DNA of 64,000 bases from Patiria pectinifera (Eukaryota; Echinodermata; Asteroidea; Valvatida; Asterinidae), in contig CM057130.1 of the NCBI GenBank assembly GCA_029964075.1, positions 3,658,001-3,722,000 of the forward strand, written 5' to 3'. Of the stretch, positions 59 to 62,786 are shown piece by piece. Within the stretch, counting starts at the first letter, position 1, and the number at the start of each line of letters is the position of its first letter. The notes beneath the pieces were generated by a model. That model had not been told where the DNA came from and ran no database searches. It saw only the letters and a program-made list of their open reading frames with translations. The position numbers and the translations under genes were made by a program.

Positions 59-328
59 CCAAGCGCAGGTAACGTGTGACCTTCCCGCTCTGTACCAAAC
101 TAGCACCAGCTCCAGCGTAGGAGGAGACGCTGATAGTGTACTCCACAGACGGATCCAGAGACATCAGTTCCTGAGAGTTGTCTCCGTCGACTGCAGTAGC
201 GGGTAGATCGTTTGGTAAGTAGCAGACCAGATACTGGTGTGGTGGGTCCACCTCGCCCCAGCCTAGTGTCACGCTGGTACCGTCGGTTCCGCGGCCCAAG
301 AAGTAGAGTCCGTTGGGTTGCGGAGGTT
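59..328 (-). CDS. FN3 domain D46 (type A), last exon in the window
   Basis: 90 codons. PPQPNGLYFLGRGTDGTS, Trp in VTLGWGEVDPP, strand C YLVCYLPND, corner LDPSVEYTISV, close VTRYLRL. Donor GTAAG in phase 1, so the gene goes on below position 1. No stop codon is reached. Confidence 0.88.
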
Positions 329-3300
329 CTGTACGGTGAATTGAAATTTTAAAAAGTGTTTACGGATGCTTTCAAAAAAACTAAGGCAGCCTCTGGTGGC
401 ATTGGATAATAGATTCACAAATGGGGAAAAAAATGGTAGTTTCCACGTTTTGGAGTTTTTGTCATGAAGAACTGTGGAAATAAGTGATGGCTACAGATGA
501 AGATCGAGATGGACTGAATTTCATGAGCTGTAAATTTGTGCGCTAACCCTGAATCAGATGGGAACCAGCTGCAGGCAATGCATATTGCATGACAGTTTGG
601 CTGGTAGGCTGTGTTTTTTTCGCTAAGCAAATAATTTCAGAGCTCAGCATATTTCCACTACAAAATGCCTGAGAAATGTGGGCCATGGGTGTTCTATCAC
701 ATCACAGCAATAGTACAATGCAGAATTCGTAATAGCCCATGTGCTCCAAGCTGCTTATCAGAAAAAAACGCTTAGTAAACCTAAGGTGCTTGGAATCAAA
801 TCAACTGCCACCAGCCATAATCAATGTACAACAAGTGGTTTTGTCTACTTTGTGGCCCATTTTTTGCTAAGCGAGGAATTTATTCTGTGATTACCTCAAG
901 CAAAATTCTAAGCAAATTTAGGTTCTCAGTCAAAACTCAGCTAAAAAAAAACAAAAAACAATCTACGTAAATCACATGTCATTTCAGATGAGTGAAAATT
1001 TTGCCATGCCCAGCAAATTTATAAGCCAACTCAGTCAGGCACGCTGTCAATTCTGTGATGGAGGCCCCTTCAATGGCGAAAAGCATTATGCCAGCTATTG
1101 TTGGGATAATCCGTTACGGGGCAATTAGCTTTGCACAATGCTTTCGCCATTAAAGGCGGACTGTGCATTCAAGTGTAACAGTGATCACGTGTTCGGATTC
1201 TTCTATACTTACTAGTGAACTGGTTCAAGGTGGTGCCGGTGGAACCTACAGGTTGCACTGTGATCTCGTACTCGGTGGCCGGAACCAGACTGTTCCCGAT
1301 CACTATGGAATTGGTGGTATTTGGAACATTCTGGTTAAACACCGGAACGTTGGACTGGGCAAGGCTGGCCAAAATGAAGTAACTGGGGAAATTGCCAGTG
1401 AACTCTCCCCACAGGATACGGATGGAGTTTTCGGTCACCTCGTCCACGTAGACTTGACCTGGATCAAGCAGAGCTGAGAGGAAAGACAAGTACAGTGGGT
1501 TTAGCTTTTGCTGGTCCCAGAGGGCTAGCGTAAGGTTCTAGTTGACTGACTGACTCACTGATTGTCACTTCTTATGTCAAAGAATACAACAAATTTGAAA
1601 AGAAATTTCACCGAGTACGAACTATGGTTGACATTGATTAAATCTTCATCGAACTTTAACTATTTAGGACCCGGGCCCAATTTCTTGGAAAAATACCTGC
1701 TTACTATAGTAGACAATTCTGTGCTGACAGTAAGCGTATTTCACATGCTAGAAAGGAATTTTGGCTTCTGCGCATGCGTACATCCCATAACTAAGGATTC
1801 TGTGCTTACAGGGTTAGCACATCATTTTTCTGCTAGCGCGGTTAGCACAAAACGGTGATCGTGAGCGCGGAATTCTGTGGTTAGCAGAGCCATGATATTG
1901 GGACCAGGTCTTATCGTTATTTATCAATAGCGGCACATTTTACAGCATGCAGTTCAACAAGGGATCGCTCACATTTTGTTATTTCTTGGGCTGGCATAAG
2001 ATGTCTCAAGAATTAACCAAGCTTCTGTCACTGGTCCTGGCTCAAACTTGCTCAACCATTTCCACGATTCATACCAAATTACTACAGAACAAGACTCACG
2101 AGTCGTGATGGTCCGGGTGACCGCCTGGGAGGTAGTCTGGCGCCCTGACATCAGAACGATGGAAATTTCATAGGTGCAGCCGGGCTCAAGACCGGTGATG
2201 ACCACTTGCGGGCAGGCGTCAGGCTGCAGTGTGATTTCTACAGGCTGTGCATTTCCTAAAGGGAAAGAAAAAAGAAGGGAAAAAAAAATGTGTCGGTTGT
2301 TTCTGTCAATGCTTTAAGTGGACTACATGTATACAGGGTGGTGCAAAAAGAAGGAAACCCACTTTTGACAGCAATTTTCACCTACTTGTTGAGCATATTT
2401 CAAAAATTCAATTTAATGGTATTGAAATATTGATCTTTAAACACAAGTGACAAAAAAATGATCGCAAATGCATATTTTGTCTCTGAGATATGGTAGTTTA
2501 AAAGTTTCATGTGCCAAACCTGTTTGTCCACGGACGGCTTTATTCCATCCGCTTGACTGAGCTCCGGAGCTTGGTTTGAAGACAAAACGCACTACACTAG
2601 ACTTACATGCGGACAACAGTGATTTTGGTGACTTGTATTGAAATTAGCATAACAACACTATTCTTGTGATTTTTTTAAAAGATTTTGTTCACCACGTATG
2701 GTTGAAGAGCTATACTTCACTACATTATACAAAAACAGTTCAAATAAGTTAAGAAAGTAGGTTAAAATTCCTGTCAAAAGTGGGTTTCTTTCTTTTTGCA
2801 CCACCTTGTATATAAAGTAAATCAACATTGGTTACATAAACTATGAAATTGAGCAAGATCTCCCTTTCTATTTAAAGAAAACAAAATTGTGTTACCTTTT
2901 CAGAAATACCCCACTCAGTGGAAAGAATACAGAAATTCTGGTTTTGTATAGTATTTTGGGTCAAAAATCCTTAAGTTAATAACTACCAGAGATTGGCAAA
3001 ATATAGGGAAACGGCAGAAGATTAAGATCAAAGACATGGCAAAATGGGCTGAGTTTAAACCGGCTGTTTAGAGCTACGGCTGTGCAATTTGTCAGCAATT
3101 TTCCCCACATAGTTTTAATTATCAAAGACCTAGTCAAAGCCCCAGACGTGAGTTTTCGGATGCAGCCACAGTTTTTACCTGCACCGGCTCCGGATGTAGT
3201 AGGTGTGACTGTGGCTACGAGGTTGTTGTAGGTTCCTGGAAAGGATGGTATCAAGTTGAGAACGACTCCACCCGGAGTCACAATCGGTGTCTGTATAGTT

Positions 3301-6300
3301 GGAGCCACAGGAGCTGGAGAAAGAATGGAAGGAGAATATCGCTGAGCACAGAAACTTACTAAGCTCAAAAAAAAATCTTGCTGAAGGCCAAAAAAAAAAA
3401 AAAATCGGTCTCTGGTCAGACCGAAGTTCCAGAATTGATGCGGCGACGCGGTTGTTTCTTTTTTCTTTTTTTTTTCAAGCTTGAATTGTACAGACAAGGT
3501 GGGTACTATTTTGCTTTTTTGTGTCCTCATTACACATTGGTGTCCTCCATAATTTGCCTTGGTGCCCTTTATCATTTGCCTTGGTGCAATTTCCCCATTC
3601 CTTGGTGCTCCTTGGTACAAAATAGTTGAGGAGGTGCGGCAATAGAGGGCGCTGTTGTAGCTTCCGTGTTAATTTGAAGGGAAAAAAAAGGTTGACGCGC
3701 ATGTTTAAAATCGACGCGCGCGCTGACCAGAGACCGAGGTATTTTTTTTTTTGGCCTAACAAAGACACATCACTAGCCAAAAAACATACTATTCATATTG
3801 CTTGTAACTGACTCCCGCTGATTTTTTTGCTGAAGACATAAATTTGCTAAGTACCATTTTCTGCCTGGCAGCTCTACAAAATTGGGCTCAGCAGCCAATT
3901 TCAGAAATCTTTACGCAATGTCGTAGCTCCGCTTGCGCCGCAATTTATTGTGTTCTTTGCGCAATACTTTGCGCTGCACAACATTTCAGTCATGACACAT
4001 TTCACGAAAGTTTCAAAATGCATAAGTCAACGACTTACGTCACAAACTATGGCGCAACTTGTGCAATCATTTCACCTATTTTACCAGCAGATCGTGATCA
4101 TTGTGGAGTCTGTCACTGCACACCATATGAAGGTTGATACAAGACACTCACAGCTTTGTGTTTGCAGTATGAATTGCTATTTCAGTGGCCCCTACGATTC
4201 CGAAGAAAGCCGGACAAAACCTTTTTTTTAACGGCGGGCTGAGGTGATTCAACGACTGTTGTTGTGATTGAACAAAATCACACACGAACAGCCCTCATAA
4301 AAGCTGTTCAAGATGTTTAGATTATTTCAAGCGTTGGGCAGCTAGGCGAAATGTCGTGAAATCGAAAAATGTTCACTGCGCAGCTGCACGACAGATTTGT
4401 TGAGCAAGTCCTACGCATGGCGTAAGTTACGCACTGTTTCGTTAAATCACCTGCAGGTGCTTCATGAGACATTACATTGACAGATTCCGGGGCTAGATAC
4501 TTACGCAATGTGTACGTGGCAGTAGCGATGAGCTGCCTGTTGACAACGTTGTTCAAAACCTGGTACAATCGGACCACATACTTCTGTCCTGGAGTAAGGT
4601 TACTCAGTTGAACACTCTTGCCTGCGATCAACCCTTGGGTGCCATCAGGCGGAGTGTAAGTCACTTCGTAGTGGTCAAAATTAGCGCCGGTGTTGTGGGC
4701 ATTCCAGGTGACCTGGACGGTGCGATCGTCCAACTTGGAGAACTGGAGAATGTCATCATCTGCAAATGAAACGAGGCGAACGCGGATTATTACCCGAGAA
4801 GAGAATTAGCATCAAGTGGAAATTTCAATCATTTTTAGTAGTCATCAGTGGTGTATCCAAAGGAAGGGTGGCGGGGAGGGGGGCAAGGGGACACCCCCCC
4901 CCCCCAGTTTGCCAACTTTTTGTTTGTTCGTTTTTTGCTTGTTCGGATTTTTTTAAGGAAAGCGCCAGCATCTCACAGCTGCTACAAGTGTAAACCAGGC
5001 CCGTCGCTGGGGGGGGACCCCAGCGGCAAAAACCAAAGCATAAAAATTACTTTTACGCCTATGGTTTTGCTCCAGGTAGCGGGGCCAGGTACCATGGAAA
5101 CACTGGATGGCAACATCCTAAGTAAGTCAACCCAGGGCTGGAGTTTAGGGGCATCTCACAATATCAAACAAAGGGAGTGCCTATTCCAAGAGATTTCTCT
5201 TTTGCGGGCTAAACAAATTTTATGTCAAGCTACAAACAATGGCCGGTATCTGGAGTTGCTTTGTTTATACTTGATGCATAATTTGAGAATCTTTTGCATG
5301 TGAAATTCTGAAACTATTGTAACGAGCACCATACTTGTTCTGATGATCTTTTCGGCAGGTTGGCTTCTGACTCCGTCTCCTACAATCGTGTAGACGCGGA
5401 CGGTGTAGTCGGTCTCCGGGTTCAGTTCGTCGATCATGGACCGGATGTCCGTCCTCGGCAAGGTCTCGTGCAGCTCCTCGGGCTGGGAACCGATGAAGAA
5501 GTACACCTTGTACTCGTCAAAGGCACCGGTTGCCGAGCCCCACTCGAAGGCGATCATGGTCTGGGTGGTGCTGACTTCGGTGATGCTTGGTGGAGCGTTG
5601 GGCTCTGTTGATGAGAAAGAGGAGGAGATGCTTTGAATTGGTCGTTAGTGGATGTTGTGGATATGGAAAGATTGTGAACTCTTGGAAATGTTTTGAATGG
5701 CTTGTGAAGACTGTAGTTGATATGGTCGTGGTTGATGTGTGTGGATTGGGCGCTGTGGATGAGAAGAAATGGTTGAAGTTCATTAGAGGCTATTGGTGAT
5801 GCACCGAATTGGCCCTTTGTGGATGTTATGGTTGCGGTTGATGTGTGGATTGGGCTTTGTTGATGAGATAAAATGGCTGAATCGTATTTGTGAAGGAAAG
5901 TGGTTTTAATGATATGACAAGAACACAGTAAAACAACTTGCGGATAAAATAGTGGATGCTGTTGAGAATCCACAGGGTACCAATATCATGATATGCCAAG
6001 CACAAAATTAACTTGGTTAGCTCATGAAATATTTGCTAAGCAAAAACTGGTTACCGGCCGAAACGTCATACGATTGCAACTGCCTGTGACTGGTTCTCAG
6101 CTGACTTTAGCTTATCACATAAATTTGCTCATTAGCTTCATAAAATAGTTATGAGGGAGCTGTATAGACATCATGTTGGGAGTTAATGTGTATCCAAGGT
6201 TAAGCCCGACCCATATCTTTCCAATTTTAACGGTTCACCGGATCATCGGACGTACAGATTGGAGAGATGTGCGCTAAAATATCAGACCACTCTGGCCGTA

Positions 6301-9300
6301 CACTGGCCAGCACTCCGATTTCACCGTTCCGATATTCATGTTAACATATCAGATTTATGATGCAAGTCACATGATTCAAAATTAACGGCTGCCATTTTGT
6401 CATCGTGCGACTGGTCATCGTGTGATTGATTATCAAGTGACCGATTATAGAACGAAAATCGGGCACGTGTGTGGGTGACATTGCAGTCCCTGCAACAGTG
6501 GGAAAAAAAACAGGTGATCTGGTGATCCTGTGAACCGATACAATCGGAATGGTGTGCGGCAGGATTTACCGACATAAGTTTGTCGCTACAATTCAATAAT
6601 TACTGTTTTTACAAATTTAATTTTTAGATTGAAGTGAAGGCACTAAAGCTGCTTCACCGAATAGGATATTTCTATTGATTGTACCAGAACGTGATGTTGC
6701 ACAGCTCCAAATTATGGGCGAGATATTAACTTACTGGTATACTGTTGGACCTCGGTGATCGGTAAGTTACTGCCGATAATCTGAAGCCTAATCCTGTACA
6801 ACGTTCCGGGGGTCAGGTTCATGATGACGGTCGTGGTGGCGCCCCCTACAGGTATCTGCTGACTTTGTAGCTGTCCGCCATTCACTGGGACCGCTCTTAC
6901 GTAGTAGATGCTTCCCGAGGGGCTGGCTCCCCACGTGATGGTGATATTGGTGGTCGTGCAGTCGTCAATGGTGATTTCGCCTGGCGGTGCAGTGGCTATG
7001 ATAGACAATAATAATAATAACGGCAATTTATAACGCGCCGGTATCCGCCATAAATGACGCTCATGGTGCAATACAAAAATCAAATCAAATCAGAAATAAC
7101 AAAGCAATTAAATTGAACTCAACAAGAATATTCTGAGTGATCTGAAACAAATAGGTCTTTTACAGGGCCACTTTAAATTCAGAAAGCGATGAGATATTGC
7201 GAATGGCGAGGGGTAGTTTGTTCCATAGATGAGGACCTGCGTAAGAAAAGGATCGATCACCCCAAGGAAATAATTTTCCTGTTTTCAAGACAATATTTGG
7301 CAAGGATTTAGTTGGATTGAGTTCAGGAGATAACACAGAAGGTATACACAGATGCGTCAGAAGATGTGATTCATCCAACAAATGAAAGGATTCCTCCATG
7401 GTTACAGAAACTTTCTCGAGAGAATAAACTCTAAACTTTTTGGTGGAACTACAAAAATTCCAATTTGCCAATTTATCTCGGGTTATGATATTCCCACAAT
7501 CTTTTTCACAACCCATTCAGTAAAAAAAAATTGGAGAAAAAAACCCCAGGAAACTGCAAGTTGTGTTTTAAAAATAATACAGGAAAGTTGCTGGCTTGAA
7601 GGGGAAAAAAATTCTGTTTGGTAAAAATCAAATTACTGATGATTATAAAGATTGTTCAACAATGTTATTTGGTAAAACAAAATGAAAGACTACTGCTCAA
7701 ATGCAATCATTATTGAATGGTTTCTGTTGGGGTAACTGATGGGGAAAAATCCTTTTAAATGTCCGTTTCGATAAAAATCCCATCAGGGTATCCTAAACGT
7801 GAGCTTGATGCTTCGTTTTACAATGTTATCAATTATTTGCAAAGTGGATCAGGGCCATTTCTGAAATCTTGGCAGTGCCTACAGCTTCGGCTTCTACAAC
7901 TGGTCAAAGCCAACGTCCAAAACGAAGCAGCGATTTGAGAACAGGCATCATAAAAGCCTGATCTAACCGTACCTGTGAATGCTGACAGCGTCCGCGGTTC
8001 GCTCCTCCGAATTCCGCTCACTGTGACCACAGAAATAGTATACTCCGTGGCTGGATCCAGACCTGTCAGACTGGCATCGTATTGTGTGGCCTGAGTCAGG
8101 GTACCATCCAGGGGACTGTGGGTGACTTCAATGTTGTCATATATCGTCCCCTCCGGCGGGCACCATGAGAAGTCCAACTGATGGGCAGTGCTCAGGTCCA
8201 ACGTGATGTCGCAGGTTGGTAAGGGTACTAAGACAAAGAGCCCCCAGTAAAAAAAATCAACATTGTCAGGAATGGCAGAGACATCATAGACAGATCCGGT
8301 AAGCCCTGCCAACAGGTCTCTCTCAAAGGCGGCCATCTCTGTAGGAGAACTGCAACTGCGTATTTTACGCAATCAAGCACGCATTGAGCAGTGTTGAAAA
8401 TGTTCCAAACAAGCCTGCTTGTTGCTCGAACTGTGTTCGAAATACGACGCAGCCGACGCGCGTTATGCAAGTTGACGCTCAAAATGCCGATGCACGTGGC
8501 TGGTCTGTAGGAAATGACGTCATTTGAGAGAGACCTATGAGGTCTGACCAATCACCAACGAAGTCAAGGCACTTGTGGTAAAACACAAGTCCATCACAGG
8601 TAAATTTCAAGTCAGATCAGAGTTGAAGGTTTACATGTGTTCACAGCATTTTCAAAGCAGCCTCCAACTTTCCAATATCAATATCATCTTCGAAATCCCC
8701 CTCTAAAACAAAGTTAAACATGCCCAGAAAGGTAATCCAATTTTTTTTCAAAACTTGAGTGGAACAAAAATTCTCAGGCGCTAGCACATAGTTCACAGTG
8801 ATGCATCAGGGCAGTTTCTCAAGCAACGGTAACATCACAAAAAACACCCCCAAAAATGACAGAAAATGTGCAATGCTTTTATATCGGAAAACAATGGAAG
8901 TCCACAAGACTGTGTCCATTTCCCTTTCCTTGAGAGTTCAGATGAGGAAGGCACCGAATCAGGGATGACATTTTCAATTTCAGCAAGGTCTGAAAACTGG
9001 ACAAAAGGTCTGAAAGATTTCATTCCATATTCAGAAAGATTAAAAGTCTGAAAAACTGTCACGCCTGTCAACGAAAGAGTTTTAAGAGAGGCTACAGCTT
9101 GACCGGTTTTCAAAGTGCAAATCGTTTTAAATACTCTCTTTCACAGAGTCAGATAAAAGGGAACATTTCAATCTATTGATACTTGATTTTTTTTTTTTTT
9201 TTACCAAGAGTAGATGACTTTTTGTTGTTGTTGCAATTATTCACCTGTGTTGGTAGTGAGCGTCGACACTTGAGGACCGTTGTAGAACAGGTCGATCGTG

Positions 9301-12300
9301 ATTTCAGCTCCAGGCATGAGATCAGAGACTCTTCCAGAGTCAAGTCCGTTGGTGGGCATTCCAGGAGTGGGGGTTGCGGTCAAGGAGTAAGAGGAAGAGC
9401 TTGCGCCAGGTCTAGCAACCCAGGCCACGTCCACCGACGTCGTGTCAACGTTGGTCACGTACAGTATCTCTTGGCCAGTTGCCACTGTTGGTTCAAGAGG
9501 TGACAACAATAATATTCACTGAGTTGGAAACAGGAGACGGCGAGCTTGAATGCTACTCTAAGGCAATGATAGTTGTTCAACCAAAATGGATAGGTAACCA
9601 GTACGAGGTCAATAAAAAAAGGAAAATGAAAGAACCAAAAATTGAAAAGAGCTTGAAAATGAAAGAGGCCGTAAATGTTAATATAATGGAGAAAGAGAAT
9701 TCAAAACTGAAAACAGAGCCTGAAAAAGTGACGCTGCACAAAACGATTGCAATACACCGTAAATACTAGCATCCTGGCACCACAAAAGATTATGTCAACA
9801 CCGAACGTACAATCAATTAATATACCGCGCAAACTAGCATGGCGATCACGATGGTGCAGCGCATGCGCAGTGACCCTAGACTCGCACGCTCGTAATTATA
9901 ACCGATTTGCTTTACACATGATTTGCTGTACACATGTGAATGTTGTGTGTCCATGCAAAAAAGTTTTAATCAAGCGCACTTTATAGGAGTCTAGCACACT
10001 GACAACACATAGCACTTAACAAATTTTCTAAGCAGCTCGAAAGAGACAAAGAATGCGCTATGGTTTTTCCTATTGGCCGAGCGACAACATGTAAGCTGTA
10101 GCCCCCATTTTGCTCTTTAATAAATTCTCGTATTGCCTGCTTACACGCAATATACTGATTTATAATTCTGCCTTCAAAGGGATAGCATACCAAGATTTTT
10201 TTGTTTTTAAAAACATAAAAAGACGGCATGTTAGCTACAGCAAGGAAAACTGCTTACTTTAAATTTTGAACACAATTCACTTTCCACAAAATGTTGCCAC
10301 GAACATTTAGCGAGGTCAAATCGCTGAACATTTGCATGAAGTACGAGGCAATCTTTACCTGTAGTCGTGGTCAGCTGCCTGCTGGCACTCCTCGTCTCGT
10401 CGTAAACGGCCCACAGTCTGACTCGGTAGGCGGTACCGGACGTCAGGCCTGTCACCACGTATTCCCTGGCGTCCCGGGGTAGGTTCACCTCCTCCAGGCT
10501 GATGTAAGGGTTAACGTCCAGACCAAAGCTCAGCTTAAAGCCGTTGTACAGTCCGGTGGCCGGCGGATCCCAGGTGACTTTGAATGTGGTGGTGGTCTCT
10601 TCCGCGACCGCAGCATTCTGAACTGTCGCAGGATCTGGGTGTTACAAGAAAAATACCAACAAAAATGCGACCAAATTATCAAAGCTAAGTTAAGATACAT
10701 TTTTGATTGACTTCTTCTTTTTTTGCTCCAAATCTATACAACACAAGAGCTTAATTAAGTCAGATGTTTGATACATTGTTAAAAGGCATATATATACACC
10801 CAGAAACATCTTATGAAGAAAACTGACCAATATTACATATAATGAAATATGTGTAGACAATTTACTGGCAGACAAAAAAGATTGCCTTGTGACTGCATTG
10901 TGACTGCCTTGTGATTGCCTTGTGATTGCCTTGTGATTGCCTTGTGATGGCCTTGTGATTGACTTGTGATTGTCTTGTGCTGCCTTGTGATTAACTTGTG
11001 ATGCCTTGTGACTGACTTGTGATTGCCTTGTGATTGCCTTGTGATTGCCTTGTGATTGCCATGTGTCTGCCTTGAGATTGCCTTGTGATTGCCTTGTGAT
11101 GGCCTTGTGACTGCCTTGTGATTAACTTGTGATTGCCTTGTGATGCCTTGTGACTGCCTTGTCATTGCCTTGTCATTGCCTTGTGACTGCCTTGTGATTG
11201 ACTTGTATTGGTCTTGTGATTGCATACAACTCTGAAATTCAAATTCTTCAGAGGACTTACTGGTTCGTTTGATGACAGAATTCAGGAAGGTCTCTGTGCT
11301 GCCTTGGACTTGGTACAGCTTGATACGATACAAGGTACCGGGCACTAAACCAGCAATCGTATGCGTCCGATCGTTTTGCACGGGTACCACTTGCATCCCT
11401 GTCATGGTCTGTCCCTCTGGGGCCCAGGTCAGACGGTAACCAGTAATGCTGCCGGAAACCGGTAACCAGCTAACGTAGATGTACTCTGAGTTGGCGATCA
11501 CGTCATCGAATCTCGCAGTTGCTGGAAAAAAAAAAAAAAAAAAAACATGAGAGAAAAAATAAACTGGAATGTGTACAACAGCATTAATAATGTAAAGAGA
11601 TTTTTAGAATAAGTGGTTATTAATTCTCACTGAAATTGAAATTGCGTTCCCTGTGCTCTTCAAGAAATTCAATTATCCCCTTTTTTTGGACATCTGCAAA
11701 CCTCTGAAATAAAGATGGTTTTGTTTTCAGGTTCAAACAGATCTGCTTTGCAAGCAGACTGACTCCCGGTCTGTACATTATCGCTACTGACTGCAGGGCA
11801 GGAACCAGCCTTCCCCGCGAGAATGGAATTACTGTCTGGCAGCCAATAATTCAAAATTGCAAAGTAACAATTGAACAACTAAACCAGGGGGCCATTTTTT
11901 TTTTTTCAGAGAAGGTCTCATTCAAATGTGAAGAACTTTTGTACAGCTAGAAAATAAACCTTATACAATGCAGCAATCTTGGAGGGCCTCTTTTGATATG
12001 TTAATTTGGTAACAATGAACGCACAAAAGGTTCACTCCTGCAAATCCCACCAAAACAATGGCATTGCCCTCTAGGTAATAATTCAATAACTAAACAAGGG
12101 TCAATTTTTTTGGTCAATGTCTCATTCAAAAGTGAGTAACTTTTGCTAGAAAAATAGTGATTTTGGAAAAGGAATCTAGTTTGACTTAATGACAGATTAA
12201 CAGGCTGATCCGCTCCCTGAGATCTAGTGGCAAACATCTTCCGAAACTGGCCACAACATCAACATCATATGGTGATAGAGAATTCTCTGCAGCTGCTCTC

Positions 12301-15300
12301 AAACTTTGGAATGAGCTTGCATTGTCTATTAGATGTGCCAAGTCGGTAGATGATTTTAAGAAATTATTTAAGACTCATCTTTTTAACTGTAATTGGACAC
12401 AAGTCTGCATTTTATTCATGTTTAGTTTTCATTTCAAGTGCTACATGTATTTTTTTTTTGTCCATGCATTTACTGTAAATCACAGTGATTGGGGCTTTTA
12501 ACGTAAAACTGAAGTTTTTACAGTATTTTAATGGTATTTCATCGATGTGCGATACTGCCGTATTTTAAAAGATTACAGTAATTTACAGTTTTTTTTAATG
12601 ATAAATTATTCTGACAACAGCTGGCCCGGCCTAACTTTTTAACCAAGTTGGGTGAAAATTTGGATTAATTTTGGTTTCTTGTTCTATTGTTAAGCACTTT
12701 GAGGAATCTTCCATTCATACTGCGATATATTAACGCTGTTTTATTATTATTATTATTATTAGGCTAATTATTTTTCGGCATAAAAGTCCAAAATGGCAGA
12801 ATTTTTTTTTTTTTTCCCCACTTAAACCTCCGACTAAGAAAGTCTAGTATTCTCAATTCACTTCAATTCTCCATTTTCCAACTTTTGTTTGATCAATATC
12901 TTACCTGTATTCCCAGAGGCAGTAGATGGGTTGCTGACCGTTGCCATGGGGCCTGTTCCACTCACGGATCGGACGGACACAGTGTACGCCGTGTTTGCTG
13001 ACAAACCGTCAACAATAAAATCCTGACAAAACATAAAAATCAGACAAAGTGAACAAGAACACACATTGGAGGTTTGAGTGAATCATAAGGAACAGGGGAA
13101 AAAAGAATTCCGTTTTTTTTCCACAAGGGCATTTCGGCCATGGACAACAAAGACTTACAAATTATCGAACTTACCTTCACAAGCAAACCTCGCATTTGTT
13201 TTCAATTCAATTCAACATTTATTTCAAAATCATACAAACACTAATAATTACATGAAGTAAAAAAGCAGTTGGAGGCAAATACATAAAAAGCCGAAGCTTG
13301 TAAAGGGAATGCATTTAAAGTTAAATAAACAAAATATGATAGTAAATAATTCTAACATATACAATGAGAGTAAATAGCCAAACATGAACACTGCCTTGCA
13401 TATGGACTGATGACTTGAAGGGTGGGGATAAAAAAAAAAGGCATACGGACGGATTTTTATTTTTTAGATTTCTCCAGGGCTTTGAAGGAAAAAAGGAAAA
13501 AGCAAGCACTTTCAAATAATTTTTTTTCAGTCTGTAAAAATGCCAGGATTTCCAGTGAGGGTTCGCTTACCTGCACATTAGCTGGTACTGTTCTTTTATC
13601 GGTTTCCACGCCATTGGGAGCAGTGACGCTAACCCGGTAGGACTGCAGCTCAAACGGAGCAGGCTGCCATGTGACATGGAGACTGGCTTGGGTGGTATCG
13701 CTGGAAATGATCGTAACTGGGCCTGGCGACTCCGGTTCTAGAAAGCAGACAAGGGCAGATGTGTCATCATTGTCTACTTCTAGCATTCAAACTCATTAAA
13801 TGTTATCCATAAATAGTTCAGACGGTTGACCCATTCCTATTGGTCGAGAGCCCGTCACGTGGCTGGTTAAAAATGGTTGATAAAAACCATCTGGCTGGTC
13901 TTAGACACTTTTCCAGTGTCGCATGAAATTTGGACGCCTCTGAAATCCGCTGCCTTTTAGTTACCGTTTTGTTGGTTGAACGTTCACAATGCTCACGTCG
14001 ACATCCGCAATTCTATCAGTGAGTCAGTATTTCACAGTCCTAAATTTACACTAGTTACGCAGCCACAGCTGCATTTTGCACCACATTGCGTAGTATGCGC
14101 GACGCGTGCGCCAATCTCCATATAAGGAGTTGTTTACGACACGGACGTGCCATAATATAACTGGAAGTGAAAGGGTTGAACAAAATTGTTCGAAATTTAT
14201 AATTTGTGACTTGTTTTGTCTATTGGACTGAAAAGTTTGGATTTATTTTACCGAAAAGGTATTTATGAATGGGAATAAATTTATGCTTGTCCTGTATTAA
14301 ACACTATGTTTAAGACTGGTTGGAGTCTGGATGCTGATCCAGACTGCAACCTGTCTAAAACAAAGTGTTTAAAACCGGACAAGCACATATTCATTCCCTT
14401 ACTAAGTCACCTTTCCATAAATAACTTTTGTCCTTTTTTTGTGTCCATTTCGTAGTTAAGCCTATCATGATGTAACGACTACATTACGCAACAGACACAA
14501 GGTGGACAGAAAATGTGCTTCTTCAAGAATGTAGTTCACAATGTCAAAATATTATAGGATTTTTTCAATCTTTTTTTATAATGATAAATTAAAAAAGAAA
14601 GAAAAAGGTTTTCACGTCGGAAAGCGCCTGATTTTAGCATGGGCTTTCACAAATGTGCTTCAGGCTAAAAAAAAAACAGGAGTACAAAATCCTCGAATAC
14701 GGACATAGAATTGCAATTTGCTTTAGATGAACGGCCATTATAAGAACTTACTTGTTCGTTGCACGACACGTCGTTCCTCCGGTCCCGGTTCCGTGTCCAC
14801 CACAATACTGTATTGCCTTCCAGGAACCAGACCGGTCAGTCTGACTCGGACAGAGGTAGAAACCCCAGCGGGTACCGAGGTAGCAAAGACCTTGTCGCCG
14901 TTAGAGTTGACGGTAGAGACTCGGAAGCTCACGTCTTGGCCCGGAGTTGCATCCCAAAGGAGCTCCAGGGATGTGGTCTGGACATCGCTGACCAGGATGT
15001 CACTTGAAGGAATGGGATCTGGGAAAATGAGACCAATCAAATACACTGTGTCTTGGGTTCCATTCAACTTCAAGCAAGCTGGAACGTCAAGGAACTTGAC
15101 ATTATGACACATCTGGACATCTTGTAACATCTTATGACATATTGTGAGGTCTTATGACATCTTGCGACATCTTATGACATCTTGTAACGTCTTATGGCAT
15201 CTTGTGACGTCTTATGACATCTTGCCACGTCTTATGACATCTTGTAACGTCTTATGACATCTTGTGAAGTCTTATGATATCTCGCGACATCTTATGCCAT

Positions 15301-48300: not shown

Positions 48301-51300
48301 CTTCGTGCAATCGTCCTCCAAGAGTTATTATGAATTGAGAACTACCTTCCCAACAAATTAAAAAAAATAGTTTGAAGTCATTCTCAACAATACTTGTGTG
48401 GCAAATTACGTCCCAGGTGACGGGGACAGAAAAAAATGTCACACTTTGGATCTTAACTTAATATAATGGCCCTCTGCATACCTATGCAGCACTAAAACTG
48501 AGTAGGGTGATCTGTGTCCTACTTAATTGTTGTGTGTCATGGAGGTTCAACTGGTTACAGAACTAAAACGTAAATTGCCAATGGCTGTTCACGATGCTTG
48601 AAATTGAGAAAAGTTTCAGAAATCGTTTAAGTTCCATCGTTTGTATCTCACGCAGGGTTTGCCCAAACAGCTGAAATTTTTTTAATGACTTGATTTAAAA
48701 AAAAGAAAATTATGAACGGGAATAAATATGTGCTTGGCCCGTTTTAAACAAGTTCACCAGCTAGGAACATGGACGCAGATAATGGCCGGAGCCGAAAGTG
48801 ATGGCCATTATCGGCGACCAGGCCCTAAGCCAGTTTTAAACGTACTTGTTTAATACCGGCCAAGCACAGATTTATTGCCATTCATAAATACCTTTCAGTC
48901 AAAAGGTCAAAACAAGTCAAGAATGACAAATGTCCAATGATTTTGTGCAACAAGTTTAATTTGTTAAACACTCCTACATAGCTGCCAACTTTTCAAAATC
49001 CCAATTAGTAATCAACCCGCGCGGTCATTTTCAACTGCTCATTATATCAAAAGCTTTACCAACATCGAGTACAGATACATGGTTTACATGTACACATACA
49101 TGTGCATACCCTTCTTGTTGTGAATAATAATGTACTGTAGGCCAAAAGATAATTTAAAAAAATAATTAAAAATTAAAATTAAAAATTTTTAAAATAATTT
49201 TTTTTTTTTTTAAATTAATTTTGTTTCAATGTCTGTATTTGTTTGTTGAAGTCAAATAAATAATAACAATAATAACATGTGCGCATATTTTTTTTGAGAT
49301 GCATGCTATCGATGTGGAGTTTCGAGTTCGTATCAATGTTTTTACACACGTTGATTTAGGGCCACCATATGCAATAGAAATATCCCGTCAACATACCTTG
49401 CAAACGCATGCTGATTTATCTTTTCTGGACGTTGTGACAAACTCAAACTCTATTACCAATTATTCCAACCATAATCTTATTAAATTCCATGATTAAAATC
49501 TCGCACTGATAGACTCATCCCGGCAAAAAGCGACCAAATGTGCTCACGATCGTCACTGAAAAGTACTCACAATTCACATACAGTACACACAACCACACAT
49601 CCACGAGATGCAGCACACAAATGACACACCATTGAAAATAGTTTTAGTCTGGTCCTCAAGTACTCCACTGCGCACACTGCATTGATGTCTATCAGGTGCT
49701 TGACTGCATTCTTATTAGACTTGTCACCAGTCCATCCATTATCGCGACATTTCGCCAGAAGTTTTCGGTCAAAAACAATACTTTACAAGTATTTTTTTTT
49801 TTCGTTAGGTAGAAAATGGGAAATTCGTAATGTTTTAGTGGCATATCGTATTTTCGTAATTTAACAAACAATTCGTAATAATTACGAAAAATTCGTAACA
49901 GTTGGCAGCTATGCTCCTACAGCTATGTTTATGGCATGTGCCTCGCATGCGAGTAGCACTACAAATCCCCTTATATGGAGATTGCGCGATGTGGCGCAGA
50001 ACACAGCAGTGTGGGTGTAGTGTGAATTAAGAACCCTATGAAAAACGGACTCATTGGTTAGTATGGCGGATGCCTTAGTGAAGATAATTAGGAGAGCGAC
50101 TGTAGAATACTGTGCAAACTCCTTGAAAGGATTTCCCGCACAGGTCACGTGTGAGGGTTCAAGCAATAGAATGGTAAAAGAGACCAGATTTCATTGGAGT
50201 CCAAATTTCATTTGACACCAGAAAAAAAAAAGTGTTTAAAACCAGTCTTTTTTTTATCAAAACTTCCAACGTGACGGGCTCTCAACCAATAGGAATGGGT
50301 AAACTGTCTTAGGTGTTTATGAATAGTGAATTACTAAAAACGAAAACAAATCAAACTGGAGTATGCTAAAGATCAAGCCCTTGCACTTACTGGTGCTAGT
50401 AGTAAGGGTGGCCGGTACGCTGATTGTTCTTAACAGGCCGGTTCCGGAGCTTGCGAATACTTCAATATTGTACTCAACGGCCGGGAGCAGATTTTCTAGG
50501 GTAAAGCTGTCCACCTCCCTGGTGACGTAGATTGTGTTCAGGACGGGGCCGTCGCCGATGTTGTACGTGATCGTGTAGGAGTCAAACTCCGAGTCTACTG
50601 CTGGCTCGTTCCACGTGAATGCGATGGAGGTTGTCGTCTCACCAGATCTAAAGATGCCTGCTGGTGGGGCTGGCACTACAAAAATAAATAAAAATGAATA
50701 AAAGTAATGCTGAAAATATTGGGTAACACTGTCTTCCAGACATTTCTGAGGATCAAGACACACAAGTTAATTTCCGCAGGCAACTTGGAGGCAACCAAAT
50801 GCGCTGCAAGTTGAAGGAACCCTCGGGAAGGACATAAGATGGACTTTGCGTCGGGGTGATGTATATTCAATATTGGGTTTTGTCCTTCACCGACACATTT
50901 TCTTTTATTAACACTGTATACTCAGTGTTGTTCTAAGTGATTGTGAGAAAGCAAATCACTTGGGACAACACCGAGTACACAGTGTTTATAAGAAAAATGT
51001 GTCGATGAAGGGCAAAAACTGAAAATTGAATTTATATCACACCGTAGCAAATTCCATCTTATGAATAGTTTGGTTGCGGTACCTGCTGCTATATCAGATT
51101 CCAACCAACCAGCCGACCCCGGCAAGCTCGGTGGTCGAGTGGTAAGACGTCTGCACTAGTAAGCAGGAGGTCGTGGGTTCGAGTCCCACCTGAGTAGATT
51201 TTCTTCTCGCAATCACTCCGGACAACACAGAGTGTATAGTTTTTATTTTTAAAAATGCTTCGGTGAAGGGCATAAATCAATAGTGTAGAATAAAGTCCAG

Positions 51301-54300
51301 TTTTCCAACAGTTTGTGGAAAATACCTCAGAACAATCTTTGAGATTGTGTGGAACAAGTTGTCAGTAGACTGTCTCGAGTGAAACGACCCTTATAGTGGG
51401 GGAGGTTTTAAAATATGGGTGGAATCAGGGGACAACTTTTTGGGCACTTATTCAATAGTTGAATCCAGGCATGTGATCACTGTGCACTCACGAGGCCCCC
51501 TTCAATGGAGAAAACCATTGCGCACGCCATTGCACAAGGCAACTGCCCGTGACAGACTATCTGAACAATAGCTAGCGCAATGCTTTCGCCATTGAAGGGG
51601 GCCTTCATTATAGAATAGACAGCATGTCCGGATTGGCCTATACGGACAGGACTGGACACGATCTGATACTAGGTGGCGTTACTTGGGAGGGTGCTTTTGT
51701 GGTATATGGAAAGGGATTATGGGGAGTACTTCAGCTAAGTTGCAAAGGGAGAAATACAATTTTAAAAAAAAAATCAAAAATGCCCGATTTCTCTGCCAAA
51801 GATATCTAAAAGTGTGGGGGAGATTTCCAAAAAAAGAACTTGTGGTGGAGGACACGGCTGGCCACTTTTTGACACCAGGTGACACTAGGCTGGGGGGGGG
51901 GGAGGGGTGCTAGTTGTGGCATGGGGGAGGGGGATGGCCAAGGAAGGGGTGGGGAGGGAGGGGAGTAGGTTCACTAAGGCTCGGGGGCCCTCAGCCACCT
52001 CAGTTACCCTCTCCCCATGATACACCATTGAAAATCAATCTTATTGAAAATTTGAAAATTGAAAATCAAAATCTTATTCCTAGAAGAGCATGATTTAAAC
52101 GAAAAGTCATAAAATGGACTAAATCCTTGGTAAAAGACTTACAGGTCCGGACGCTGCCCGTATTTGTCAGACTACCAACCATGACAGTGACGTTGTAGAG
52201 ACTTCCCGGCCTTAGACCAGTGAAGCTGCCGATGCGTACAGCGTTGGGACCCACCACGCCCACGTTGGCACCGGCGGAAGGCACGATTTGATAGACGTAG
52301 TTCTGAGTGTTGCCGGTCACCTCTCCCCAGGTGAACTCGATGGAGGTCGTCGTGACCTCACGGAAGATGACCTCGACTGGAGCAGCGACAGCTGTAACAT
52401 TGGTTTCAAATGTAAGATTTCAACGATTTATCAACTGATTCATTTCCTATTATTCTAACTGGGGTAACCCCGTCAGTTTTTAATGAACTGTACTCTCTCT
52501 GGAGACCATGGATATGAACGTGGGAAAAGTCACCAAACTGGAACAGTTTCAAAACTTGATAAAATAAAAATATCTGGCAAATTCCAATATTTGATTATCG
52601 TTTTCGTTATGAAGTTAACTATGTTTCACACCCCATAATTCAAAACTCAATTTAAAAGTCTTAACTGTTTCGAAGAAAAACTTTTGTTCCAAATATTTAC
52701 ATGCTAAGCTACAAACCATACAACTAACACTCACAAACAATGTAATGTGACCAAAAATACAGAGTAAAATTGTACAATAACACATTGCCTCTTGGGCTGT
52801 TTGTTCCACTGAATTTGTCAGTGTTTCGCTTTATTTTCAGTGTTTCAAGTATTTTCAGTGCGAATTTCTAATGTCATGCCCAATCAAGCTCCAGGTTGTC
52901 ATGATCACAGCAGTGTGCTTTTTTGGTTTTTATTTTGCTTTGGATAGAAATGAATGTTATGGAAGCTCAATCAAAACTGAACTAAGAATAATGAAATAAC
53001 AACTGATGTGAATATTTCTGAAGAAAGTTATGGACTCCGATATGATAGGAACTATTCCAGGTTTATTGTACGACAAACACGAGTTCACATAGGAACATGT
53101 AAGCGGCCATGTTAGGAGTGATGCATGCCGGGATACATGGATTAGACTTGCTACAATGCATCGATTAGATGGGAATTGCTACATCCTCTCTTCTAAGTTT
53201 AGTTTTAACATTTTGAATAAAACAGCATTATGAAATAAACATTTGTTTGATCAGTGAATTTGTAAACTGGAGTCTGGTAATTTAAAGTCTGAGTATTTCA
53301 CTGATTTGAAAACACTTAATGAATATTTAAAAAACACACTGGTTATGTAAATGTACCAAGATAAACAATTACTATCCTTTCCTCTGAAAAAAACAAACAG
53401 AGGGTTAAATCAATAATATAGTAAAAAACAAAACTCAAATGCCTTGAGTACTGAGATAGACTGTCTCAGTACTCGATGTGTGTACAAGGGATTATTCTGC
53501 CCTCATCTTTGGAGTGTACAACACATAACACATGTTGAGTAGGCAAATGTAGTTACTAACAGTCCAGTAGTCGGGGACAGTCCAAAGTTATCAGCATGAA
53601 ATTTGGATCAACAACACAAATCCAGTGCGGGCAAAGCAATAACAGTCACACAAGACTGTTAAGTGTATTTAGGATTTGGCTTCGAGATGCGACCAGAGCG
53701 AGTGAGAACTGGCTGTGCTGGAGGTGCGTGGGGGATGGCAGGTTGAGGCAGTGGATCCTGTGGTGGTAAGTAGAAGTCAGGTGAGTGTTGTTGCTGTGGA
53801 GGTGGTTCAGGGACTGGCAATAAGTGTCTCCGATTGCGGCGGTAGAGTGTGCCTTGGGCATTGACGATGTACGATCTGGGGTTTCTGGAATGCTTTTGGA
53901 CAATTCCAAGCTGGTCGTGCCCTTTGGGTGATTGTAGACGAACAACTTGCCCTGGTTTCAGTGGTCGGAGGGGCTTGGCAGATTTGTCGTATGAAGACTT
54001 CTGTTGCTGTTGCCTCTTGCGTAACTGTGCTGTGACGCGTGTGTAAATGGCGGGTTTAAGGAGTGGCATCGGGGTAGGGATGGTTGTGCGAAGACGCCGT
54101 GACATGAGACGTTGGGAAGGTGAGCCAAGCTGGGGGTTGGTTGGGACATTGCGAATGTTCAGCAGGTTTCGGTAGAGGTCTGAACCATCGCGTTTTGTCT
54201 TCTCGAGGAGTTGTTTGGCGCGCTTGACAGAGCTTTCTGCAAGGCCATTGGACTGGGGAAAATGGGGACTGCTGGTTGTATGCTGGAAGCCCCATGACTG

Positions 54301-57300: not shown

Positions 57301-60300
57301 AAGCGAGCAATGATGCTCGACTTTGTGGGTTTGAAATGCTTCTCAAGTCTGTCCACTAGTTCTTGATATGTAGCTTCGTTTGGTTTCTTAGGGGCAAGAA
57401 GATCGCTAATCAGCTTATATGTTTGTGAACCAACGACAGAGTTGAGTATGGCCCTTTTGCGTGCTGCGTCGGAGATATTGTTCGCCGCGAAATATTCGCC
57501 GAGACGATCAGTGTACATTTCCCATGTCTCTTTCTTTTCACAAAACTCTCCAATATTGCCGAAAGTAGCCATGATGTATTAAGAAACGAATCCCGTACTT
57601 ACTGACACCATGAAGAAAGTTATGGACTCCGATATGATAGGAACTATTCCAGGTTTATTGTACGACAAACACGAGTTCACATAGGAACATGTAAGCGGCC
57701 ATGTTAGGAGTGATGCATGCCGGGATACATGGATTAGACTTGCTACAATGCATCGATTAGATGGGAATCGCTACAATTTCTATACCAAAGGTCTCAAAGC
57801 GCTTCACAATTATTACCCCTGTTCATCAGGCTATGAGACCATTTCTTTCGGCAGCAGCTCGAGATCAGCGCAATCTGAATTCTACCTTCACAGGTACCCA
57901 TTTATACTCCTGGGTGGAGAGAGGCGATTGTGGTAAAGTGTCTTGCCCAAGAACACAAGCACCATGGTCCCAGTCAGGGTTTGAACCTGCATGAGTTGGA
58001 CACTGCGACCACTGGACCAGGTGCTCCATATTGACCCGTTAGCCATTGTAAATGCATTGTATTACACCGTATTGACTTTTTGCTGAAACCATAAAACTAT
58101 AGGATCTTGGGTCGGTTTGGGGGATAGGGCTGTGCATTGGAACCATGTACCCGAGAACCCGACCGTTAATGTCAGGAACCGGTTCCAGATTATGGAATTG
58201 GCCACCCGTAACCAACTTTGCAAATTACTTATTAACTTCCCAGTCAATGAAAAAAGAAAGGTTTCGAATGTCAGTGGTAACATTTTCAAAATGAAAAAAA
58301 ACAGGATACATGGAAAACCAAAACCAATTTCACGTTTTATGATGCTTGCAAAAGTTGCAGTTTTCACCACATAGCTAAAAAGCTCACTGTATACACTCTA
58401 TCTAGATATTTTTATCTTTATTTTTTAGTAGGGTACCCCGTTCCTGTACTACCCGTAAATGCACACCCCTATTGAGGGCGGTGTAAGGCGTGTTAACAGC
58501 CAGTGCCCTTTGGGGTAGTAGGGAGTAATGCATTTAATAAAAAAGCCACATTACCTGTGGTCAGGGAGCTTGACCTGGACACGCTGGTGGTTATATCTAA
58601 CTCTTCCCCGGCCACAGCCCTGACTGACACGGTGTAGACCGATCCAGGCAGAAGCTTTCGCAGGGTAAATCTGGGCGTCTGGCTGGCCCCAACGGTGACC
58701 GAGTTAGTGGAGCTACCGTCCTGCGGCAGGTAGTCCAGGAGGTAGAAATCCACCACCCCGCTGGACGGCTGCCAGCCGACGGTGAGAGTAGTCGAGGTGG
58801 ATGCTAACCTGAACGGGATGCCCGGCTGGGCGGCACCTGAGGGTGGGGCATTGTGGGAATGTGTTTATGCGGTGTATGCATTGCTCATCGAGGGCACTAC
58901 AGGGTGTCCCAAAACAAGAAAAAGTTGTGCAAGCAGATATCCTCTAATTTATCAAAACCTACTTAACATGAGGGTTCTATATGTATGTAACGCTGTGTGA
59001 ACACACAGTGGTCTCCCCCACTGGAGCTGTCGCAAGAAGTGACAAAGCACCATGTAACCTTCATGCAGAGATTTGTTTCATTTTATATTATACAAATGTT
59101 GTGAAAACTGAAACGTGGAAAAATCCGAGAAAATTTAAAGTTTTCTTGTAAATACAACAAATTGAGTTTCAAGCTGACTTACGGGTGCGTTGGTTTATAG
59201 ACAGAGTCAGCGTGGGAGTGACCACTACCTCGATGGTGTACAACTCTCCGGGGGTCAAGACCGGGAAGTTTCTGGTCGCAAACACTCTGTTGGCATCGAC
59301 GCTCTGTACTTGTAGGGCACCCCGGCCGGAGCTGGTCGGATAGATGTAGACCTGGTAGATGGAGCCGGCGGCCAGGTTCTCATGCCAGACAACGGAGATC
59401 TCGCTGGTGGTGTAGCTGCTGACAAAGATCTCGTCCAAGTTGATGTCAGCTATAGGAGGAGAGATTAAATATCATTTTGTTACAGAAATTTAAGGTAAAT
59501 ACTTGTAAATATTTTATGACTGCCGAGGGTTGTAGTTTGCAGTCAAGACATCACAAGTGAATCACAGTCAAGTCATTCACTTCGCAGGTCATCACAAGTC
59601 AATCAGAGGTCACCAAAAGTCAATCGCAGGTCATCACAAGTCAATCTGAGGTCATCACAAGTCAATCAGAGGTCATAACAAGTCATTCGCAGGTCATAAC
59701 AAGTCATTCGCAGGTCATCACAAGTCAATCTGAGGTCATTACAAGTCAATCATAAGTCAATCAGAGGTCATCACAAGTCATGCGCAGGTCATCACCAGTC
59801 ATTTGCAAGTCATCACAAGTCAATCAGAGGTCATCACAAGTCAATCACAAGTCAATCAGAGGTCATCACAAGTCATGCCCAGGTCATCACAAGTCAATCA
59901 GAGGTCACCAAAAGTCATTTGCAGGTCATCACAGGTCATCACGGTCAATTATGGGTAGTCAGAAGTCAATCACAAGTAAATTGCAACTCAATCACCGGTC
60001 ATCGCAAGTCGTCACCGCTTACTGCTTGTGCACAAGTCGATCACAGGTCATCAAAAAAAATCACATACCAGTTCCACATCATTTTGTCATTGATTATATG
60101 TGATTTTACTTGTCATTGATGGGTGAATGAAGTGTGATTCAATTTGTGATGGACCTGACTGACACATCTCTGTATTTTCAAGTAATTTAACCAAAAGAAG
60201 CCACATCCCTTTTCACAATACCCCCCAATGTATTTGTGATGAAGATCTTTTTGCCCTTTTTAGGGAACGTCTTAATTATAAACCTTGAAACATGCAGCTT

Positions 60301-62654: not shown

Positions 62655-62775
62655 CAAATAGACAGTTTACCCATTCCTATTGGTTGAGAGCCCATCACGT
62701 GGTTGGTTTTAAATAAGGGAATAAAGGTGGGCTTGGGAGGTGTTAAACACTATGTTTAAGACTGGCTAGAATCTG
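62655..62775 (+). mobile_element. Fragment of the CCTATTGGTTGAGAGCC family
   Basis: CCCATTCCTATTGGTTGAGA and GGTGTTAAACACTATGTTTA match 13,830 and 14,300. It abuts the 26-bp array. Confidence 0.65.
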
Positions 62776-62786
62776 TTATTGAATCA

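Follow-up and report, generated by a model that had tools for sequence, protein, structure and literature searches.

How did an array of FN3 exons that fills an entire stretch of a sea star chromosome reach its length, and to what kind of gene does it belong? This question is raised by the window, a stretch of 64,000 nucleotides of the genome of Patiria pectinifera (GCA_029964075.1, contig CM057130.1), in which an earlier note had recognized FN3 domains of two alternating kinds, and had suggested that they may form part of a giant adhesion or matrix protein. The analysis of the locus indicates that the array is, very probably, the central part of the ectodomain encoded by a single, very large predicted R3-type receptor protein tyrosine phosphatase gene. 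The contig is referred to here as C2 (window = C2:3658001-3722000, plus strand), and the assembly searched comprises 613.5 Mb in 1020 contigs.

FN3 Domains of the Window

The FN3 profile was seeded with 12 open reading frames (ORFs) of the window and then iterated, and the borders of the domains were taken from the splice signals, nearly every domain being a single exon with the acceptor approximately five residues ahead of the profile start and a phase-1 donor. In the window, matches at meaningful scores were restricted to the minus strand; the best E value of the iterated profile on the plus strand was 0.59, and that of the window-trained profile in a reversed-ORF control was 0.23. The exon model contains exactly 46 FN3 domains, the number claimed previously, which run on the minus strand from 62618, the first acceptor, down to 59, the last donor, the limits already given in the earlier note (Table 1). 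These domains comprise 41 single exons and five that are split in two. The same strand carries further FN3 exons beyond either border, and the array is open at both ends of the window, as had been proposed. In the numbering of the whole modelled gene, adopted here, the domains of the window are D28-D73, the former D1 being D28 and the last domain D73.

When the 41 single-exon domains of the window were scanned with Pfam, 36 matched fn3 at E <= 0.001, while five also matched PF16656, and two PF25300, an FN3 model named after Dep-1. The window-trained profile recognizes 116 of the 118 modelled domains at E < 1e-3, all but D1 and D118, in comparison with none of 590 shuffled copies, although this is mainly a control of composition, given that the profile was trained on the window domains and was itself used to find most of the others. 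The predicted structure of D55, an A-type domain, has the FN3 fold (mean pLDDT 96.3), and its best matches in the PDB are designed and natural FN3 domains, with top-ten TM-scores of 0.79-0.87 by query length.

Table 1. Predicted exons of the gene model. Plain positions refer to the window, and those with the prefix C2 to the contig.
Feature	Position	Strand	Basis
D28, B type, split FN3, first exon, inner intron phase 0	62500..62618	-	exon model
D28, second exon	61060..61186	-	exon model
FN3 D29, A type	60402..60698	-	exon model
FN3 D30, B type	59183..59449	-	exon model
FN3 D31, A type	58555..58836	-	exon model
FN3 D32, B type	52143..52391	-	exon model
FN3 D33, A type	50391..50675	-	exon model
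FN3 D34, B type	47793..48047	-	exon model
FN3 D35, A type	46689..46970	-	exon model
FN3 D36, B type	46100..46360	-	exon model
FN3 D37, A type	45106..45402	-	exon model
FN3 D38, B type	44408..44698	-	exon model
FN3 D39, A type	42743..43030	-	exon model
FN3 D40, B type	42174..42425	-	exon model
FN3 D41, A type	40636..40935	-	exon model
FN3 D42, B type	39749..40006	-	exon model
FN3 D43, A type	38769..39053	-	exon model
FN3 D44, B type	36247..36483	-	exon model
FN3 D45, A type, first exon, inner intron phase 2	35802..35967	-	exon model
FN3 D45, second exon	34207..34331	-	exon model
FN3 D46, B type	33029..33301	-	exon model
FN3 D47, A type	32225..32509	-	exon model
FN3 D48, B type	30969..31217	-	exon model
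FN3 D49, A type	29693..29977	-	exon model
FN3 D50, B type	27794..28051	-	exon model
FN3 D51, A type	26071..26346	-	exon model
FN3 D52, B type	24768..25016	-	exon model
FN3 D53, A type	23260..23559	-	exon model
FN3 D54, B type	21802..22065	-	exon model
FN3 D55, A type	20518..20799	-	exon model + predicted structure
FN3 D56, B type	19709..19957	-	exon model
FN3 D57, A type	19214..19498	-	exon model
FN3 D58, B type	18808..19053	-	exon model
FN3 D59, A type, first exon, inner intron phase 0	17342..17475	-	exon model
FN3 D59, second exon	16499..16658	-	exon model
FN3 D60, B type	15910..16185	-	exon model
FN3 D61, A type	15361..15633	-	exon model
FN3 D62, B type	14752..15018	-	exon model
FN3 D63, A type, first exon, inner intron phase 0	13571..13737	-	exon model
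FN3 D63, second exon	12905..13022	-	exon model
FN3 D64, B type	11261..11521	-	exon model
FN3 D65, A type	10359..10634	-	exon model
FN3 D66, B type	9245..9484	-	exon model
FN3 D67, A type	7973..8227	-	exon model
FN3 D68, B type	6735..6995	-	exon model
FN3 D69, A type	5335..5604	-	exon model
FN3 D70, even position, not B-like by end motif/profile	4505..4759	-	exon model + A/B profiles
FN3 D71, A position, first exon, inner intron phase 1	3179..3313	-	exon model
FN3 D71, second exon	2100..2255	-	exon model
FN3 D72, B type	1213..1473	-	exon model
FN3 D73, A position; modelled gene continues ~78 kb below window to phosphatase	59..328	-	exon model
Juxtamembrane exon 1, phase 1 to 1	C2:3587221-3587069	-	splice signals; modest support
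Juxtamembrane exon 2, phase 1 to 2	C2:3586146 or 3586107 to 3585897	-	splice signals
Juxtamembrane exon 3, phase 2 to 1	C2:3585132-3585062	-	splice signals
Transmembrane (TM) exon, phase 1 to 2	C2:3584927-3584834	-	splice signals + hydropathy

Extent of the Gene and Its 5' End

Beyond the window, FN3 exons continue on the minus strand for approximately 39 kb upstream, to 3760882, and approximately 70 kb downstream, to 3588456, which brings the gene model to a total of approximately 118 FN3 domains. Ninety-six of these domains are encoded by one exon, including D90, for which a second exon was not found, and 22 by two, with inner introns of phase 0 (13), phase 1 (6), or phase 2 (3). The FN3 exons are mostly bounded by phase-1 introns, with the same phase and spacing on both sides of the window, and the introns between consecutive domains have a median length of 917 bases, with a maximum of 6163 (D31-D32) and otherwise no more than 2350. 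A break in parity between D20 and D22 led to the search for a missing domain and the recovery of D21, a split A-type domain, with modest support (21.6 bits). The first domain, D1, is a weak FN3 match (E 0.038), and D3 has a poor donor, the end of this domain being the modeller's choice.

Upstream of D1, a signal-peptide-like exon, MGDRNLACFCLILATLLFK, is found at C2:3768028 (hydropathy 2.85, donor 6.4). This exon ends in phase 0 and is joined in that phase by D1, whose acceptor at 3760886 is likewise in phase 0, with a T-rich tract. The signal exon is conserved in an inverted partial copy of the gene, described below, and most of the surrounding DNA is not. In the interior of the array, a scan of the sequence outside the FN3 exons recovered no signal-type exon from either strand with a hydropathy of at least 2.5 and a donor above 4.0, while loose thresholds gave 20 weak candidates on the gene strand versus nine on the other.

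The gene model occupies the minus strand between C2:3768028 and a stop just below C2:3579558, a span of approximately 188 kb with approximately 154 exons, in which the last coding exon may either read to this stop or splice at a donor at 3579617 to another exon. From this model, we infer a protein of some 11,260 residues, encoded by a single continuous transcript. The 118 domains contain only two RGD triplets, in the neighbouring D4 and D5 (C2:3756897-3755621), in the last third of each domain, near the tip.

The Membrane-Proximal Region and the Phosphatase Domain

Below D118, the last FN3 domain (27.9 bits with Pfam fn3, against a cut-off of 25), the same strand contains a predicted juxtamembrane domain, a TM helix, and a phosphatase domain, with matching phases and GT-AG borders (Table 1). 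The TM and phosphatase exons are phase-coherent, with AG before and GT after in 12 of 12. The phases of the juxtamembrane exons match the R3 signature, 1-1-2-1-2, and this domain includes a furin-type site, RKRR; phases of 1,1,2,1,2 have been described for R3 juxtamembrane exons, and a furin motif for many invertebrate R3 proteins (PMC5242461). The TM-proximal domain model named after PTPRJ, PF18861, scores 33.8 bits (cut-off 26.3) when the first juxtamembrane exon is included through a hand-made joint, but only 19 bits, below the cut-off, without it; an exon-wise search of the whole genome with this model returned no match, with an equally silent control. A single TM helix is predicted, with a hydropathy of 3.6 over 19 residues, in comparison with a maximum of 1.69 in any of the 118 FN3 domains.

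The phosphatase domain matches PF00102 with 273.8 bits (E 1.6e-81) over profile positions 1-233 of 234. This is the one PF00102 stretch at the locus, and no second PTP domain was found below C2:3579618 among the matches listed, for which the best candidates were scored. The active-site motif, HCSAGVGRSG, is intact, while the general-acid loop reads SWGDHGIP, that is, WGD instead of WPD, with the Asp kept and the Pro changed. Two sea urchin proteins with changed loops, WVD and WTD, have been described (PMC5336234), in which the middle residue is likewise altered and the Asp kept, the difference being the G found here.

Among the single-domain chains of the PDB, PTPRB is the best match of the phosphatase domain (275.4 bits, versus 236.2 bits for PTPRQ). 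PTPRH and the LAR-type single domain 2nv5 both score 259.1 bits, the LAR-type first domains 253.7-256.9 bits, and PTP10D 249 bits; the two-domain LAR-type chains score higher in total. These scores favour PTPRB as a single domain, but PTPRH and the LAR type come close, and the phosphatase domain alone is compatible with other subtypes. Like the present gene, PTPRQ combines many FN3 domains with a single PTP domain, and a role in linking the shafts of cell protrusions has been suggested for it (PMC10815196), but its loop reads WPE (PMC5336234), and its single-domain score is lower than that of PTPRB. By the WPE criterion of the same study, the WGD loop does not support orthology with PTPRQ.

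A search of the genome with the phosphatase part returned 88 matches among the best 93 of 231 candidates, and those off the locus are only 29-58% identical, which means that no near copy is seen within this set. Clusters of phosphatase exons are found on contigs C3, C17, C19, and C21, several of them near FN3 exons, with at least 158 PF00102 matches from the 150 candidates scored, and the genome seems to be rich in receptor tyrosine phosphatases.

Candidates were found for all three of the features for which the ends of the gene were examined, following the earlier note, namely a signal peptide, a membrane helix, and a phosphatase. The note's idea of a free giant adhesion or matrix protein does not hold, given that the predicted TM and tyrosine phosphatase exons follow D118 in phase and on the same strand. 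The signal exon upstream, together with the juxtamembrane, TM, and phosphatase exons downstream, indicates that the array would be the ectodomain of an R3-type receptor tyrosine phosphatase. An FN3-only ectodomain and a single PTP domain define the R3 receptors (PMC5336234, PMC5242461, PMC10815196), and the model presents both, together with the juxtamembrane phases 1,1,2,1,2 and one TM helix; for the ectodomain, the Pfam scan covered the 41 single-exon window domains and D118.

The model shares with PTPRB, PTPRJ, PTPRH, PTPRO, PTPRQ, and the fly PTP10D and PTP4E the FN3 ectodomain, the single TM helix, and the single PTP domain, as well as the phase-1 FN3 exons, some with inner introns of phase 0, 1, or 2, and a long, FN3-like juxtamembrane domain. 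The FN3 exons of the R3 genes are reported to be mostly 1:1, with some 1:0:1, 1:1:1, or 1:2:1 (PMC5336234), and the long juxtamembrane domain is described as missing in human PTPRH and PTPRO (PMC5336234, PMC5242461, PMC10815196). The present gene differs in the WGD loop, in the alternating and eight-domain order of its repeats, and in its approximately 118 FN3 domains, in contrast with the 8-18 (UniProt) or 7-18 (AlphaFold) of the human members (Table 1 of PMC10815196).

One such gene might produce, in addition to the long phosphatase, shorter or secreted FN3 forms through the in-frame skipping of domains or blocks of domains, which would be compatible with the R3 model. The 96 single-exon domains have phase 1 at both ends, except for D1, which starts in phase 0, and with D3 and D90 uncertain, which means that most domains can be skipped in frame; a soluble form of human PTPRJ that lacks the transmembrane and phosphatase parts has also been described (PMC10815196). 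Symmetric exons merely permit skipping, however, and these forms are considered possible, if somewhat doubtful.

Titin and other giant FN3 proteins have an FN3 count of the same order, and are also encoded by exon-rich giant genes, but the gene described here ends in a transmembrane phosphatase. The strongest FN3 cluster of the genome lies elsewhere, at C2:12.06-12.29 Mb, and may be titin-like.

Alternation of Two Types of Domain

The odd-numbered domains of the whole-gene numbering (D1-D118) are denominated A, and the even-numbered ones, B. In the window, the A domains have a mean length of 93.7 residues, versus 84.9 in the B domains (permutation p <= 5e-5), and start with P in 22 of 23 cases, versus four of 23. 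An R/K-T end is found in two of the 23 A domains and 18 of the 23 B domains, and a T/S-T end in 14 and none, respectively. Forty-two of the 46 window domains, and 99 of the 118 over the whole gene, find their best match in a domain of their own parity, while the mean local alignment score in the window, for pairs two or more apart, is 65.3 within the same parity and 45.2 between parities (a difference reached in none of 2000 label permutations). The alternation of ends, lengths, and starts with a two-domain period, as first described in the earlier note, is thus borne out by length, P start, end motif, and similarity. Loop lengths have been used to tell PTPRB from PTPRQ (PMC5336234); here, a crude W-to-Y measure of loop length gave no clear separation of the A from the B domains.

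In the maximum-likelihood tree of the 46 window domains, a single clade (92/92, unstarred) unites 20 of the 23 B domains, with D44, D66, and D70 outside it, and the A/B label changes four times, versus 15.7 in shuffles (0/500 as low). A strict A clade was not obtained. The grouping of neighbours regardless of parity, which the earlier note had set against its own reading, was not seen, with neighbours joined in none of the 13 two-domain tips. Single groupings in this tree are soft, given its long end branches, unsettled bootstrap, only three of 43 inner branches starred, and a D28-D52 join flagged as two long branches meeting.

When A and B profiles were trained on D28-D65, 63 of the 80 held-out domains were placed by parity (binomial p 1.1e-7), that is, 25 of 27 in D1-D27 (including D21, itself found by parity), 34 of 39 in D66-D104, and four of 14 in D105-D118. 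This indicates that the alternation spans approximately D1-D104, and that the 14 membrane-proximal domains are of another, plainer kind. The blurring reported near the former D39-D46 (D66-D73) is found in the end motif, but not in the profiles, which still place seven of these eight domains by parity. A different C-terminal part does exist, as had been suggested, but it begins at approximately D105, some 52 kb beyond the end of the window, rather than at the former D39, and this non-alternating part is presumably older.

The limit of the alternation might also mark the junction of two or more genes, that is, one or more secreted or matrix FN3 proteins upstream, and an ordinary R3 phosphatase with only the last 14 or so domains. 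This is consistent with the other kind of the last 14 domains, which together approach the size of an ordinary R3 ectodomain (8-18 in the human members, PMC10815196), as well as with the inverted copy, in which array pieces occur with no phosphatase seen in the parts read, and the 20 weak signal-type candidates found inside the array at loose thresholds. By contrast, neither the strand nor the exon phase changes at D104-D106, where the introns are of ordinary length, and the lack of a strong signal-type exon inside the array makes two genes less likely; overall, this arrangement appears improbable, and the single R3-type gene is retained here.

The Eight-Domain Period and the Growth of the Array

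A longer period is superimposed on this alternation. In the window, the mean score of two domains is 81.9 at a distance of eight, 85.6 at 16, and 72.6 at 24, whereas the remaining even distances up to 22 give about 60-66. For a period of eight, the observed difference is 15.0, against -0.03 +/- 1.96 in within-parity permutations (0/1000 as high), and for a period of 16, it is 12.9 (0/1000). A period of four gives 6.5 (1/1000), with distances that include the multiples of eight, while periods of six (-2.6, 944/1000), 10 (-6.6, 1000/1000), 12 (-0.8, 611/1000), and 14 (-4.4, 951/1000) were not supported as the repeat unit in the window. On the tree of 46, the position modulo eight changes 17 times, versus 28.6 in within-parity shuffles (minimum 23; 0/2000), and nine of the 13 two-domain tips join domains separated by eight, 16, or 24 positions, including the flagged D28-D52.

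By eye, the excess at a distance of eight extends from approximately D18 to D57, with partners as far as D65, and the period is not significant in D1-D27 (87/1000), D66-D118 (910/1000), or D74-D118 (963/1000). Mean identity in D18-D66 is 31.4% at a distance of eight, 28.8% at two, and 25.7% at one. The period of eight in the window suggests that the visible younger growth copied eight domains, or four B-A pairs, together, although a mean identity of 31.4% indicates that even this growth is old. The growth by two-exon units that had been proposed is thus supported insofar as the blocks are larger than one domain, but the youngest growth visible in the window involved blocks of eight domains rather than two. 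Similarity would be consistent with an older membrane-proximal set of approximately 14 plainer domains arising first, followed by the alternating B-A array of approximately 104 domains, and, latest, by the copying of eight-domain blocks around D18-D66.

The Inverted Partial Copy

The plus strand carries a partial copy of the N-terminal part of the gene, arranged head to head with it, between C2:3773038 and about 3894836, with its own signal exon at 3773038, approximately 5 kb from that of the gene. This copy repeats D1-D18 at 93-99% exon identity, in 20 exon pieces with 1571 codons, no stop, and no gap. The aligned exon blocks have 3.0% mismatch and no gap openings in 4770 bases, versus the 50.6 expected from the flanking non-exon DNA, which has 6.2% mismatch and 169 gap openings in 15,927 aligned bases. 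The two copies of D1-D18 differ by a dN of 0.029 and a dS of 0.037. With this ratio of 0.79 and no stop or indel, both arms look to be under coding constraint with many amino-acid changes.

No match to D19-D27 was found in the inverted arm in the comparison, which extended up to 3822000, and the region 3882001-3952000 contains five FN3 pieces that match D27, D4, D5, D4, and D5. Further local re-duplications of D4/D5-like exons are found in the far inverted arm. In the parts read (up to 3822000, and 3882001-3952000), no phosphatase was found in the inverted copy among the matches listed, and a second phosphatase gene on the other strand was rejected on these grounds.

Different inserts and a rearranged far end favour the inverted arm as a real paralogue rather than a misplaced haplotype. 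It is highly improbable that the length of the array or the inverted copy is partly an artefact of assembly (misjoined haplotypes or mis-stacked repeats), given that, while misplaced haplotypes would also leave an adjoining inverted copy at 93-99% exon identity, the domains of D18-D66 have a mean identity of only 26-31% at the distances measured, a divergence much too great for errors of stacking, no N occurs in the 264 kb and 70 kb stretches, and the arms differ in introns and inserts, with the far arm rearranged.

Other Elements in the Window

The window contains a number of other elements. The 6.2 kb D31-D32 intron includes a Ty3/gypsy-like element (window 53659-57578, minus strand), with open frames of 400 and 920 residues that resemble gag and pol. 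Short tandem arrays are found in three introns, at 10880-11223 (11-base unit), 16764-17293 (23), and 59549-59981 (21), and those at 16764 and 59549 have words in common, such as CAATCACA. A 26-base satellite (62774-64000, 47 copies, 94% match) extends up to the end of the window, and its blocks match DNA of the plus arm at 3887915-3888363. A tRNA-like match at 51125-51197 on the plus strand (44.7 bits in Rfam; ARAGORN names no anticodon) is perhaps a tRNA-derived short element, and an inverted repeat at 2330-2812, with 74-base arms that are 86% complementary and 335 bases apart, is like a small transposon with terminal inverted repeats.

Possible Function and Significance

Each FN3 domain is 3-4 nm long, and 118 of them would form an extended filament of approximately 0.4 micrometre. 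Such a filament might keep the tyrosine phosphatase out of close contacts, or might span between membranes or into a coat, and the contact distance, or the capture of ligands along the filament, would then set where tyrosines are dephosphorylated. By analogy, the control of phosphatase placement by filament length is offered only tentatively; size exclusion has been described for CD148 (PMC10815196). The RKRR site could yield a two-part receptor, and cleavage near the membrane without release is known for other receptor phosphatases (PMC5242461). A more elaborate and rather unlikely scheme would combine a 0.4-micrometre rod built by two- and eight-domain duplications, a fast-evolving tip, and a facing, apparently phosphatase-free partial copy that could act as a decoy or partner. 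If true, the filament and its facing copy would suit contact-distance sensing, self/non-self recognition, or the recognition of gametes.

Among the open-licence papers listed, no title or abstract opening described a giant FN3 phosphatase, whether from sea stars or from other organisms. Provided that the full transcript exists, its product would have six to seven times the number of FN3 domains of the longest human R3 members, and would possess, to our knowledge, by far the longest receptor-phosphatase ectodomain. The array provides a clear record of growth, in which an eight-domain repeat lies on top of a two-domain alternation, and the plainest, presumably oldest, part is found at the membrane. 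The full transcript would also represent a natural test of size-based models, in which the length of the ectodomain decides where the phosphatase acts.
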